Origin: Ruania alkalisoli
GTDB taxonomy: Bacteria; Actinomycetota; Actinomycetes; Actinomycetales; Beutenbergiaceae
Direction: 5' to 3'
Assembly (NCBI RefSeq): GCF_014960965.1
Contig: NZ_CP063169.1
Location: forward strand, 4,311,581 to 4,375,580
Length of the DNA stretch: 64,000 bases
Both the position numbers and the translations under genes were made by a program. This document shows, one piece after another, positions 34,128-38,751 of the stretch (its first letter is position 1; the number at the start of each line of letters is the position of its first letter). The notes beneath the pieces are model-generated. The model saw only the letters and a program-made list of their open reading frames with translations, did no database searches and was not told the DNA's origin.

Positions 34128-34440
34128 CGACATTGCTCGACGATTTGGTGGCTGGTCAGCCGCCAGATCGACTGTGAGTGTGGTGTTCGCAGCCTGGTGG
34201 TGATGGGCTGTGGGTGGTGGCTTGGAGTGTGACTCGCTAATCGACTGGCCGTGTGTGCCTTTCGCACGACTTGTCCGCTCCGGGTCGCCGCCTCCGGCCC
34301 GGTCGGAGCGACTGGCCTGATCAGGAGCTTGACCGGCGGGCGTAGTAGCGCCCGTCGTGTCCCATCTACAGTCCTGCCGATTCTCCTACCGGACCGGAAA
34401 GCAACAACGTCCCGTCCCGTTCCGAAGTGGAGGAAACGTC
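34128..34440 (+). ncRNA. 5' noncoding region of the IS110 element with candidate bridge RNA
   Basis: No convincing gene is present in these 313 bp. They hold strong hairpins: CGCTCCGGG pairing with CCCGG-T-CGGAGCG across 34276-34310, and CGGGCG/CGCCCG at 34337-34354. IS110-family elements are known to encode a structured guide (bridge) RNA in a noncoding end. The element boundary within this stretch is not defined. Confidence 0.45.
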
Positions 34441-35590
34441 ATGACTAGTCTGAGTGATCTCGTCGAGGTTGTCATCGGGGTCGACACCCATGTCGATACC
34501 CATACCGCGGCGATCATCGATGCTGGCACCGGTGGGGTGCTCGGCCAGGTACAGGTCGCGGCCACCCCGGCGGGGTATGCCGAGCTGGTCGAGTTCGTCG
34601 ATACCCACCTACGCGGTGAGGATGAGGCTGATATCGAGACCGATCCGTGCGCCGCCACTGGTGGACGGGCGTGGGCGATCGAGGGCACCCGCTCCCACGG
34701 GGCGGGTCTGACCCGACATCTACAGGCTCGTGGTGAGCTGGTCATCGAGATCGACCGCCCGCAACGGGCCAAGCGCCGCCGTGGAGCCAAGTCCGACCCG
34801 ATCGACGCAGTCCGCGCCGCACGGGAAGCGTTAACCCGCGAGCACCTCGCCACCCCACGCTCAGGCGGGAACCGGCACGCCCTCGCGATCCTGCTGAGCA
34901 CCCGAGACTCCCTCGTGACCGAAGCAGGCCGCGCCGCACGGCAAGTGTTCCACCTCATCATCACCGCCCCCGAACCCCTGCGAGCGAAGTTCGCCGGCAA
35001 GAAACTGCCCGCGATGATCACCACCGCCGCCCGGCTACGCACCCGGCCCGGTCAAGACATCGAGACCACCACCACGATCACCATCCTGCGCGACCTGGCC
35101 CGCCGCGCCCAAGACCTGACCACACAAGCGACCCAGTACAAGAAACAGATCCACCACATCGTGACCAGCATGCGCGCCGACCTGCTCGATCAGCCCGGCA
35201 TCGGCCCCATCGTGGCCGCACGAATCCTGTGCGCCTGGTCCCACCCCGGACGCATCCACTCCGAAGCCGCATTCGCCATGCTCGCCGGCGTCGCCCCCAT
35301 CCCAGCCACCAGCGGCAGAACCACCAACCGACACCGCCTCAACCGCCACGGCGACCGCCAACTCAACCGAGCACTCCACGTCATCGTCCTGACCCGACTA
35401 CGCCACGACCCACACACCCGCGCCTACGCCCAACGCCGCACCACCCAAGGCCGCACCCACCGCGAAATCACCCGCTGCCTCAAACGCTACATAGCCCGCG
35501 ACATCTACCGACAACTCGAACACCACAACCCCACAAACACCCCTTGACAGAACATAGGAGCGTCGAGCGATTTCTGGGAGGCGATCGGGC
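34130..35590 (+). mobile_element. IS110-family insertion sequence (approximate limits)
   Basis: It comprises the structured noncoding region, the transposase at 34441-35547 and a short 3' end. IS110 elements usually lack terminal inverted repeats, so the ends cannot be fixed. Weakly similar sequences (CGACGATTT near 34138, CGAGCGATTT near 35563) flank the element. It sits between a TetR gene and the FecB-type gene. Confidence 0.7.
34441..35547 (+). CDS. IS110-family transposase (DEDD recombinase)
   Basis: I start at the ATG at 34441, seven bases after GTGGAGGAAA, giving 368 residues. The N-terminal RuvC-like DEDD domain begins VVIGVDTHVDTHTAAIID. The C-terminal Tnp domain shows RADLLDQPGIGPIVAARIL and GVAPIPATSGRTTNRHRLN, containing the serine that completes catalysis in this family. 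The reading frame appears intact, so the element may still be active. Its third-position usage is as GC-rich as that of its neighbours. Confidence 0.93.
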   Translation: MTSLSDLVEVVIGVDTHVDTHTAAIIDAGTGGVLGQVQVAATPAGYAELVEFVDTHLRGEDEADIETDPCAATGGRAWAIEGTRSHGAGLTRHLQARGELVIEIDRPQRAKRRRGAKSDPIDAVRAAREALTREHLATPRSGGNRHALAILLSTRDSLVTEAGRAARQVFHLIITAPEPLRAKFAGKKLPAMITTAARLRTRPGQDIETTTTITILRDLARRAQDLTTQATQYKKQIHHIVTSMRADLLDQPGIGPIVAARILCAWSHPGRIHSEAAFAMLAGVAPIPATSGRTTNRHRLNRHGDRQLNRALHVIVLTRLRHDPHTRAYAQRRTTQGRTHREITRCLKRYIARDIYRQLEHHNPTNTP

Positions 35591-35603: not shown

Positions 35604-36626
35604 TCAGAAGGCGTCGGGATAGAGCCCTTCGGCGATCTGCCGGACGATCGCGACGTTGCCCAGCGTCCCGGGGAAGACGTCGGAGCTGGAGACCGCGATC
35701 AGGCGACCTTCACGCACGGCAGGCATGTCGGGGAAGGTCGTCTCCAGGTACTCCCTGGTGGCCGTCTCGTGCGCCTCGTCGTAGACCGAGAACACCAGCG
35801 CATCGGGTTCCTCGGCCGCCAGCGACTCCGGCGTGACGGTCGCGGCGAAGAAGTCGGCGAACGCGGCTTGGTCCGGGCGGTAGACGTTGTCGGCACCAGC
35901 GCGGGAGAGGATGTCGTACTCGATCCCCGCACCGATGGCCTGCAGGGTGGTCCCGTCCACGTAGACCTGCGCCACCCGCAGCGGCTCGACGGCGGCCACC
36001 GCGGCCTCGACCTCGTCCAGGTCCGCCTGGCTCTGCGCGATGAGGTCTGCGGCGGCCCCCTCCACGCCGAAGATCGTCCCGATGTTCTCCAGGTCCGTGA
36101 ACAGGTCGGTGACCTCGCCGCCCATCCGTCGCTCTGCGCACCCGCCGGTGGCGACGTACACCGCTGCACCGGCCTGGTCGAGCTGGTCGATGCTCGCGAA
36201 CCCCTGCTCCGCGGTGAACTCGTACGTGGTCGGCGAGTAGACGAAATCCGGCTCCACGGCCAGCAGGTCCTCGCGGCTTGGCGGCATGACATCCCCGATC
36301 ACGGGCACATCGGCGGCCAGGCCGGCAACGTCGTCAGGCAGGGCTTGAGCCCCGGTCTGAGCCTGCCCGGCGAGGTGGTCGGCCAGGCCAAGACGCAACA
36401 GCAGCTCGGTCTGGGCGGGGTGCATTCCCACCACAGCCCCGGGGACGTCATCGACGACGACGTCCCGTCCGCAATTCTCGATCGTCACCGACTCGGCCGG
36501 CTCGCTCTCGGACGTGGTGGACCTGACGGCGGACCCGCACCCGGTCAGCAGCAGCACCCCGGCAAGGGCGGCAGGCGCCAGGCGCGCGGGTGCAGCGGAG
36601 GCAGCGTTCATGAGGAGGTCGCGCAT
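35604..36626 (-). CDS. FecB-type siderophore/metal-chelate binding lipoprotein
   Basis: 340 residues with a lipoprotein signal ending LLLTGC (Cys about residue 30). The mature part has the two-lobed FecB/BtuF pattern (VVGMHPAQTELLLRLGLADHLAG; REDLLAVEPDFVYSP; LRVAQVYVDG). Starts at 36626 or at 36611 are both possible; the latter overlaps the ATPase stop (ATGA). With the ATPase and permease upstream it forms an importer for an iron siderophore, haem or corrinoid; the ligand is unknown. Confidence 0.9.
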   Translation of the reverse strand: MRDLLMNAASAAPARLAPAALAGVLLLTGCGSAVRSTTSESEPAESVTIENCGRDVVVDDVPGAVVGMHPAQTELLLRLGLADHLAGQAQTGAQALPDDVAGLAADVPVIGDVMPPSREDLLAVEPDFVYSPTTYEFTAEQGFASIDQLDQAGAAVYVATGGCAERRMGGEVTDLFTDLENIGTIFGVEGAAADLIAQSQADLDEVEAAVAAVEPLRVAQVYVDGTTLQAIGAGIEYDILSRAGADNVYRPDQAAFADFFAATVTPESLAAEEPDALVFSVYDEAHETATREYLETTFPDMPAVREGRLIAVSSSDVFPGTLGNVAIVRQIAEGLYPDAF

Positions 36627-37456
36627 GATCGTGAGGTTCCTTCTGTGGAGGGGTCAGTGCGGGATGGTTCAGCGGGCGGTTCGGGTGCGGAGTGGGCGGC
36701 GAACGGCCGGAAGGCGAACACCGGATCGCTGGGCTCGCCGAGCACGCGGACGTCGACGCCGAAGGTGGTGCGGATCAGGCCCGGCGTCAGCACCTCCACA
36801 GGCGGTCCGGAGGCGATGATGCGCCCTTCGGCGAGCACCACGATGTGGTCGCAGTACTGGGCCGCGAGGTTGAGATCGTGCAGGGCCGCGATCACGGTCC
36901 TGCCGAGCCCCCGGACGGTGCTCATCAATTCGTGCTGATGAGCGATGTCGAGGTGATTGCTCGGCTCGTCGAGTACGAGGATGGGGCTCTCCTGGGCGAG
37001 CGCCCGCGCCAGCATGACCCGCTGTCGCTGCCCGCCGGAGAGGGTGGCGACCATGCGATCACCCAGATTGGTGATCTCCGCCCGGAGCATCGCCTCATCC
37101 ACGATGCGCAGATCCTCGGCAGTGTCCCGACCGAACGAGGCGTGATGCGGTGCACGGCCCAGGGCCACGGTCTCTGCCACGGTCAGATCGAAGTCGGTGG
37201 GTGGATCCTGCAGCATCACTGCCACCGATCGCGCCGCCTGCCGCCCGCTGAGGCTCAGCACGTCCCGGCCATCGACGTGCACGGTGCCCCGCCTCGGCTT
37301 CAGGGCCCGGTACAGGGTGCGCAGCAGCGAGGACTTCCCGCTCCCGTTCGGCCCGACCAGACCCACCACAGTTCCCGATTCCACTGTCAGCGAGGACTCG
37401 CGCACCACATCCCGCCCGCCCAGGGTCACCGTGACGGCGTCGAACTCCACTGTCAT
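36608..37456 (-). CDS. FecE-type ABC transporter ATP-binding protein
   Basis: Starting at the ATG at 37456 gives 282 residues, MTVEFDAVTVTLGGRDVV. Walker A GPNGSGKSS, signature LSGGQRQRVMLARALA and Walker B LVLDEPSNHLD define a siderophore-type ATPase. The frame stays open upstream through two exact 87-bp repeats, each beginning with ATG, up to 37630, where an ATG overlaps the permease stop. The true start could therefore add 29 or 58 residues. Confidence 0.9.
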   Translation of the reverse strand: MTVEFDAVTVTLGGRDVVRESSLTVESGTVVGLVGPNGSGKSSLLRTLYRALKPRRGTVHVDGRDVLSLSGRQAARSVAVMLQDPPTDFDLTVAETVALGRAPHHASFGRDTAEDLRIVDEAMLRAEITNLGDRMVATLSGGQRQRVMLARALAQESPILVLDEPSNHLDIAHQHELMSTVRGLGRTVIAALHDLNLAAQYCDHIVVLAEGRIIASGPPVEVLTPGLIRTTFGVDVRVLGEPSDPVFAFRPFAAHSAPEPPAEPSRTDPSTEGTSRSCATSS

Positions 37457-37627
37457 CGGTGCTCTCTGGTCTGAGCCCTCCGGTACCCCGCTCCAGCGGC
37501 CCTCGTCCCTCACGCCACCTACACCCGGGTTCCTCAGGCTCATCGGTGCTCTCTGGTCTGAGCCCTCCGGTACCCCGCTCCAGCGGCCCTCGTCCCTCAC
37601 GCCACCTACACCCGGGTTCCTCAGGCT
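37454..37627. repeat. Exact 87-bp tandem duplication at the ATPase gene start
   Basis: Units 37454-37540 and 37541-37627 are identical, and the first bases of the unit recur at 37628. The length is a multiple of three and each unit carries an in-frame ATG on the minus strand, encoding 29 residues opening MSLRNPGVGGVRDEG. Confidence 0.92.
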
Positions 37628-38751
37628 CATCGGCCGAACCCCGCCCGGTCGGCACCGCTACGGCGCATCAGCCAGAGGAAGAACGGTGCCCCGACGAACG
37701 CCGTCAGGATCCCCAACGGGATCTCGGTCGGAGCAGCCACGGTCCGCGCGAGCAGATCGGCTGCCATCAGGAACACCGCACCGCCGAGCACCGCCACCGG
37801 CAGCATGCGCCGGTGATCGGCGCCGACTGCGATCCGCGCGATGTGCGGCACGACCAACCCCACGAACCCGATACCGCCGGCGACCGACACCACCGAGCCG
37901 GTCAGCAGCGAGGCCAGCACGAGCAGAATGGCCCGCATCCGGGCGGCGTCCACGCCGAGGGAGACGGCGGACTCGTCCCCGGTCATCAACGCATTCAGCG
38001 ACCGCGCCAGCAGTGCCGCGGCCACACATCCCACCACCAACGCCACCGCCGGTCCGATCAAACTCGACATCGTCGCCGCCGACACGCTGCCGAGGAGGAA
38101 GAAGAGCACGCTCACCACGTTCTGGGCGTCGGTGGAGATCGTCAGGTAGCTCGTCACCGCGCTGAACAGGGTGCCGAGCGCCACGCCCGCGAGGATCATC
38201 CGGGTCGGTGACAGCGCCCCGTCCTTACGCGCGAGCGCCGCCACGCACACACAGGCAGCGAGTGCCCCGACAAAGGCGGCGAGGTTCATCGACATCCCAC
38301 CCAGTGCCGCCGACCCGAGCACGATCACGAGGACGGCGCCGACGCTCGCGCCGGAGGAGACGCCGAGGATGTAGGGCTCGGCGAGCGGGTTGCGCACCGT
38401 CACCTGCATGAGGGCACCGGCCAGCGACAGGCCGGCTCCGGCGAGCCCCGCCAGCAGTGCGCGTGGCAGGCGGAACTGCCACACAGCCTGATCCTGCAGC
38501 GCCGTCAGCGATCCGTCCGACATCCATGGCATTCCCGGCGCCAGGTGCCCGATCACGATCTTGGCAGCCTGCACAGTGCTGACCTCCACCGAACCCACGG
38601 CTCCCGAGAGCACCACGAGCACTCCGACGGCCACCGTCAGGACGCCGCAGATCACCGTGGTGCGCCTGGCGCGAGCGACGCGAGCTCGTGCAGTGGCGGA
38701 GCGATCGCCGTCCGGTGGGCGCACGCCGATAGCGGGGGAGGAAGTGGGCAC
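37627..38751 (-). CDS. FecCD-family ABC transporter permease
   Basis: 374 residues with about ten hydrophobic helices. LPRALLAGLAGAGLSLAGALMQVTVRNPLAEPYILGVSSGASVGAV and the later GFVGLVVPHIARIAVGADHRRMLPV are FecCD hallmarks, the latter being the ATPase-coupling region. It is the first gene of the minus-strand uptake operon, divergent from two ABC half-transporters. Confidence 0.93.
   Translation of the reverse strand: MPTSSPAIGVRPPDGDRSATARARVARARRTTVICGVLTVAVGVLVVLSGAVGSVEVSTVQAAKIVIGHLAPGMPWMSDGSLTALQDQAVWQFRLPRALLAGLAGAGLSLAGALMQVTVRNPLAEPYILGVSSGASVGAVLVIVLGSAALGGMSMNLAAFVGALAACVCVAALARKDGALSPTRMILAGVALGTLFSAVTSYLTISTDAQNVVSVLFFLLGSVSAATMSSLIGPAVALVVGCVAAALLARSLNALMTGDESAVSLGVDAARMRAILLVLASLLTGSVVSVAGGIGFVGLVVPHIARIAVGADHRRMLPVAVLGGAVFLMAADLLARTVAAPTEIPLGILTAFVGAPFFLWLMRRSGADRAGFGR

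Follow-up and report, generated by a model that had tools for sequence, protein, structure and literature searches.

The closest described counterparts of the element analysed here are two IS110-family insertion sequences: IS621, for which a bridge RNA has been reported (PMC11208160, PMC11208158), and ISEc21, which is active and for which a seekRNA has been demonstrated (Siddiquee et al., PMC11187229). In the IS621 numbering, the core occupies positions 8–9 and the top strand is cut after position 9; strand exchange is promoted when positions 6–7 pair with the partner, whereas the complex is locked when they pair with the guide's own DNA (PMC11208158). A −35 box completed by circle formation has been described for both elements, and a G--P----SG motif containing the catalytic serine is reported for the IS110 family (PMC11187229). 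Insertion sequences that target repeated extragenic palindromes (REPs) are also known (PMC1525189).

The window, which is the whole 64,000-nucleotide stretch of Ruania alkalisoli DNA that was analysed, contains an IS110 element with a predicted bridge RNA, ordinary of its kind and unusually well resolved. As judged from its sequence, it is almost certainly an ISEc21-like insertion sequence that moves by bridge-RNA-guided recombination.

Extent, ends and copies of the element

Genomic copies and orthologous empty sites place a complete IS110-family element of 1,392 bp at window positions 34173–35564 on the forward strand; the placement 34172–35563 is equivalent, one C being common to target and element. 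The host genome (G000; 4.45 Mb, a single contig) holds seven near-identical, full-length copies, all of which agree internally and diverge at identical points. The other six differ from the window copy by one to three substitutions each. One of them, L005, additionally carries one inserted base, which makes it 1,393 bp long and splits the recombinase frame near codon 57; the frame is intact in six of the seven copies.

In the congener G005, the locus orthologous to the window insertion is empty and lines up with the joined flanks, no base being gained or lost, reading CCAGATCGAC^GTGCGATTTC, compared with CCAGATCGAC and GAGCGATTTC flanking the window element. The G005 sites of L002 and L005 gave the same junction result, again with no base gained or lost, and the adjoining repeats differ in number. 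Empty sites were found in G005 for three of the five copies tried: the L003 locus was located there without the palindrome described below, the L007 flank had no match in the search for its orthologous site, and L004 and L006 lay outside the comparison. The three empty sites fix both ends of the element to the base and show no target duplication on insertion, as in site-specific insertion of the IS110 type. The target reads GAC and the right end of the element GTC; since the middle base differs, only the C can be shared at the crossover.

These ends narrow the interval proposed in an earlier sequence-only reading (34128–35590), of which 45 bp on the left and 26 bp on the right lie outside the element as defined by seven copies and three empty sites. 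That reading had also described the element as apparently intact, which agrees with the complete 368-aa transposase frame and the ends defined by copies and empty sites. It had named a left end downstream of the upstream hairpins as the outcome that would speak against it; the empty-site comparison puts the left end at 34173, upstream of all hairpins.

Across 24 genomes of the host family, matches to the element at E ≤ 1e-100 were confined to its own genome, and a search of a phage collection returned only two weak partial matches.

Elsewhere in the window, a perfect 87-bp tandem repeat (2.1 copies; 37453–37633) lies at the start of the frame 36608–37630, which by eye resembles an ABC-transporter ATPase and whose predicted protein opens with a repeated 29-residue stretch. 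The true start of this frame may lie downstream of the repeat.

The recombinase

The recombinase gene occupies 34441–35547 (+) and encodes 368 residues. It matches the Pfam families DEDD_Tnp_IS110 (PF01548; 47.3 bits, cut-off 29) and Transposase_20 (PF02371; 75.4 bits, cut-off 21.3) and the NCBIfam model transpos_IS110 (NF033542, 'IS110 family RNA-guided transposase'; 154.6 bits, cut-off 140). Residues D15, E81, D119, D122 and S291 are invariant across the 12 aligned proteins and, going by the family motif, probably correspond to the DEDD and serine residues. The GxxPxxxxSG motif reads GVAPIPATSG, and its G283, P286, S291 and G292 are identical in the same 12 of 12. Among relatives of solved structure, sequence comparison found only ISCro4 and IS621 at E ≤ 0.01. 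The same two were the top fold matches (E-values of 8.6e-9 and 3.1e-8) of an AlphaFold model of moderate quality (pLDDT 71, pTM 0.55), with low TM-scores of about 0.33–0.39.

The noncoding DNA is distributed as in the IS110 group rather than the IS1111 group, with 268 bp upstream of the gene and 17 bp downstream. Between the first and last 40 bp, exact inverted matches do not exceed 6 bp, a length at chance level (reached by 303 of 500 shuffles); the absence of long (7–17 bp) subterminal inverted repeats likewise assigns the sequence to the IS110 group and not to IS1111.

A second IS110 gene in the genome (L117; G000:C1:2378533–2379537) is 42% identical to the window gene, and L119 (4169857–4169994) is a short, decayed IS110 fragment with one stop codon.

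A REP-like palindrome as the target

Six of the seven copies are inserted in one arm of an imperfect palindrome, the other arm of which is retained in the flank (16–20 of 20 matches). At the window copy, comparison with the other copies and the empty site resolves the interrupted arm into a left target half, CCAGATCGAC (34163–34172, +), and a right target half, GAGCGATTTC (35565–35574, +), and the other arm lies outside the element at 34129–34148 (−), imperfect with 16 of 20 matches. A weak flank similarity, CGACGATTT / CGAGCGATTT, once considered a possible mark of the ends, falls within the arms of this palindrome and is not an end marker. The label 'REP-like' was given from the palindrome form.

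The remaining copy, L007 (G000:515177–516575), has no detectable palindrome around it (11 of 20 matches). Its site fits the left guide (AAATCGAC) and hardly fits the right one, which suggests that target choice depends more on the left guide than on the right.

The palindrome arm occurs 71 times in the host genome at up to two mismatches, and the reversed pattern not once. It is present in seven of the eight genomes of the genus, the host included, and its number among these congeners (G000–G007) ranges from 0 in G006 to 88 in G005. Most simply, the sequences indicate that the palindromes predate the element in the genus and that the element arrived recently. A RAYT transposase was considered as the source of the palindromes in the host genome and rejected: a PF01797 search of this genome alone returned no Y1 (RAYT-type) transposase, and five of 14 controls were positive.

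Architecture of the predicted bridge RNA

The 313 bp between the tetR stop codon (34127) and the transposase frame contain no recognised gene, as the sequence-only reading had stated, and are strongly folded: for 34175–34440 the fold has a z-score of −3.07, and none of 200 shuffles was equally stable. The 268 bp of the element upstream of the gene have the layout of a bridge RNA, with a target-binding loop and a donor-binding loop.

Relatives were collected in one scan of GTDB genomes, which gave 59 loci; we take all of these to belong to Actinomycetota, one of them in a Coriobacteriaceae MAG. An alignment (A1) was built from 31 of the 39 elements used below, excluding L060 and L061 (near-identical to L059), L063 (longer noncoding region) and the distant L077, L080, L084, L086 and L087. 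The aligned noncoding region is well conserved from the target loop through the donor loop, except in two short stretches of the first loop, and its consensus structure, determined with RNAalifold, contains both loops.

The target-binding stem-loop spans 34212–34293 (+) and is closed by arms 34212–34233 and 34273–34293. The outer stem of the donor-binding loop pairs 34294–34308 with 34383–34397 (both +) in the consensus structure, and the loop carries a terminal hairpin at 34335–34356 (+) in both the single-sequence fold and the consensus. One of the two hairpins proposed earlier, near 34337–34354, is this terminal hairpin; the other, at 34276–34310, finds no support as a unit, since the consensus divides it between the target-loop arm and the donor-loop outer stem. 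A possible 5′ stem-loop at 34189–34211 (+) is weakly indicated: it comes from the single-sequence fold, and the consensus of 31 sequences keeps only three pairs in this area. No Rfam family matched the region at its gathering score.

Across the alignment of 31 sequences, 96.6% of the cells of this structure are paired, compared with 35–45% for structures slid along the alignment. Fifteen pairs are changed on both sides, against 6.1 in shuffles, none of 500 of which reached 15. The target-loop stem accounts for 12 of the 15, so changed at 12 of its 21 pairs; the donor-loop stems barely vary, and conservation is their main support.

Target guides covary with the flanks

The left target guide, AAUCGAC, lies at 34239–34245 (+), with core bases at 34244–34245, and the right target guide, UCGCAC followed by the core GA and a handshake C, at 34262–34270 (+). 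Each guide was compared with its own flank, left with left and right with right, in 39 elements (the window element and 38 relatives), with identical pairs merged to give 36 left and 37 right pairs. The remaining 21 of the 59 relatives comprise six truncated near-copies that resemble L088 (L089–L094) and 15 of the 53 scanned, in which the motif search found no left end or target loop, so that the comparison covers members with a recognisable motif and excludes divergent ones.

Both guides covary with the flank on their side. For left guides, 180 of the 212 variable positions (−4 to −9) are matches, against 86.6 (s.d. 7.4) with permuted partners, and for right guides 92 of 139 (+1 to +4) are, against 51.3 (s.d. 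5.6); none of 20,000 permutations reached either value. These permutations ignore relatedness, and some guide classes are common to related elements with similar targets. A test with one element per class, which meets relatedness only in part, gave 139 of 162 against 59.7 for left-guide 9-mers and 57 of 92 against 29.4 for right-guide 5-mers. The covariation stops at the guide ends, with 29 of 105 matches against 29.5 expected at positions −10 to −12, beyond the left guide, and 50 of 204 against 44.4 expected at +5 to +10, a value reached by 2,929 of 20,000 permutations.

The window element fits its own flanks worse than many relatives fit theirs, with a six-base run for the left guide and, for the right guide, a four-base run, one mismatch and four more matches. 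Against two palindrome variants, with the element core on the right side, its left and right target guides together give a contiguous run of 15 nt; none of 1,000 shuffles reached 15, the maximum being 13. The best-fitting variant, ..GTGCGA.., is that of the orthologous empty site.

Loop bases thus follow each element's own flanks, and at the level of sequence RNA-guided target choice is well supported for this element. The suggestion that the upstream noncoding DNA is the source of a guide RNA finds support here, both in the bridge-RNA-like structure and in loop sequences that vary with the insertion sites across 39 related elements.

In L005 (G000:3192783–3194205), the base equivalent to window 34239, within the left target guide, is G in place of A, which improves the fit of the guide to the common palindrome arm (AGATCGAC) by one base. 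This copy, the one with the split recombinase frame, adjoins a row of palindrome repeats.

The donor loop and the predicted circle junction

The left donor guide, AGGAGCUU (34323–34330, +), matches the element's right end at every position but 7 and is conserved in alignment A1. The right donor guide, CUACAGUC (34366–34373, +), is complementary to the left end and has one extra U relative to the related elements. Within the second loop, AGGAGC.U matches the right end CATAGGAGCGTC, and (C)ACAGUC is complementary to the left end of the element plus the AC of the left flank; the loop is in this way complementary to the joined ends of the element (AGGAGC to the right, ACAGUC to the left), with guides that barely vary. 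Five distant relatives have the left end AGTGA for TGTGA and the guide CACUGU for CACAGU, which indicates that the right donor guide changed together with the element end.

An alternative left donor guide, GGAGCGAC at 34305–34312, was rejected. This stretch varies among relatives, whereas AUCAGGAGC is nearly constant and distant relatives carry AUAGGAGC there, as do most of their right ends; the guide is accordingly placed at 34323–34330.

The predicted circle junction is GGAGCGTC-TGTGAG. TTGACA at 35544–35549 (+) is a candidate −35 box for the would-be junction promoter, and its position is conserved: among the 51 elements for which a right end was found, 50 have a TTGAC that starts 20–21 nt from that end. 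No clear −10 box was identified in the window element.

A partner-coded first core base

The core is not shared as in IS621-type bridge RNAs, the target having AC and the element TC. At position 8, the left junction has A in 37 of 39 elements and G in two, and the right junction has T in 38 of 38. With this base left free, A8 stands in each of the 38 uninterrupted palindrome arms found at 30 loci, these loci having been fetched with an A-containing pattern at up to two mismatches. At this position the left target guide agrees with the left junction, both G cases included; the right target guide always has T8, which fits all 38 right junctions and none of the 39 left ones. In all 39 elements the right donor guide has the U complementary to A8, a base that the search motif itself contained, and the left donor guide has U for T8 in 31 of 31 aligned. 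By these counts, the bottom-strand guides carry the base of their own DNA at position 8 and the top-strand guides that of the partner. Position 7 behaves in the same way in the five distant relatives: in each of them the right target guide has the base of the element (A) and the right donor guide that of the target (A, G, G, A and G).

By analogy with the IS621 handshake at positions 6–7, position 8 resembles a handshake displaced by a single base, a feature that ISEc21 shares. On balance, we favour the reading that the first core base acts as a built-in handshake switch in the IS110 branch that includes ISEc21, mismatched in both loops before strand exchange and completely paired after it, so that crossover would need only one shared base (none in ISEc21). 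With A in the target, T in the element and top-strand guides coded for the partner, exchange would swap two mismatches for matches and may in this way be driven forward.

The same sequences fit a second, rather unlikely account, in which the coding at position 8 serves excision: the four guides would be complementary to the integrated junctions, left target with right donor guide at the left junction and left donor with right target guide at the right, and insertion would tolerate the mismatch. All four guides do fit the integrated junctions at position 8, and for ISEc11 and ISEc21 target-derived flanks on both sides are reported to be needed for circle formation or movement (Siddiquee et al., PMC11187229). 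In IS621, however, partner pairing at positions 6–7 is reported to promote strand exchange in the insertion step (PMC11208158), and the five distant relatives are partner-coded at position 7 as well, in both loops.

An argument excluding a wide stagger, drawn from the top-strand position-8 bases inherited in all seven copies, was dropped, as the overlap of IS621 is also mismatched; its authors suppose that mismatched overlap bases are repaired (PMC11208158).

The sections consulted of PMC11208160, PMC11208158 and PMC11187229 do not describe a partner-coded first core base, nor do the titles and abstracts listed in searches of the open literature announce one, a silence that speaks only weakly for novelty. 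Durrant et al. recognised cores by their repetition and demanded that they be concordant, which may disfavour elements with unshared cores. If the switch reading holds, searches for element boundaries that demand a repeated core would overlook such elements or set their ends wrongly.

Proposed mechanism and significance

By analogy with IS621 and ISEc21, the element would excise as a circle, with the joined ends forming a promoter, and an RNA from the left end would bind the recombinase. The first loop of this RNA would pair with the target through the left guide AAUCGAC and the right guide UCGCAC plus core, and the second loop with the circle junction. The recombinase would then join the circle into one arm of the REP-like palindromes.

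That the folded upstream region is merely an mRNA leader controlling transposase expression is very improbable: small RNAs and 5′UTR structure are reported to regulate the ISPpu9 transposase (PMC8450116), but a leader predicts no tracking of the genomic flank by loop bases. The two roles may coexist.

More improbable still is that the recombinase rather than the RNA reads the target and that the likeness of loop and flank was inherited from a captured ancestral target, as the guide classes common to related elements with similar targets might suggest, since the matches persist with one element per guide class, involve both strands and two distinct segments of the loop and end at the edge of the left guide, and use of the RNA has been shown for IS621 (PMC11208160) and ISEc21 (PMC11187229).

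Programmable DNA insertion is what draws interest to bridge RNAs. For the window element, the target, both ends, all four guides and the joining point are legible in the DNA and can be set beside those of 38 relatives, which yields actinomycete recombinases with a readable guide code. Should the partner-coded base prove a real switch, it would provide a natural design rule for forward strand exchange and relax the demand for a core dinucleotide common to target and donor.

Comparison with known systems

IS621 likewise has a DEDD and serine recombinase (about 20% identical to that of the window element by structural alignment), a bridge RNA in a long left end with a target loop and a donor loop, a candidate promoter box in the right end and partner-coded handshake bases. 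In IS621, however, the core CT is common to target and donor and the handshake is at positions 6–7, whereas the window element shares C9 alone with its target and is partner-coded at position 8.

ISPpu9, ISPpu10 and ISPa11 also insert into repeated extragenic palindromes; unlike theirs, the host here is an actinomycete, with no Y1 transposase found in its genome.

ISEc21 is the closest characterised relative identified, with 36.0% protein identity over 96% (hit H32). It likewise has a recombinase of intermediate size, an upstream noncoding region, a left guide that precedes the right guide and no target duplication. The copy retrieved for comparison is 1,374 bp long, equal to the published construct minus its 100-bp flanks. 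Three intact target copies of ISEc21 read GAT and its right end reads GTC, so that both core bases differ between target and element, whereas only the first differs in the window element. The ISEc21 right target guide codes the element core, giving an 11-base run with that core and four bases with the target core, and its right donor guide matches a hybrid GAC over eight bases, the target core over four and the element core over five. The targets themselves differ, ISEc21 entering IS3-family transposase genes and the window element REP-like palindromes.
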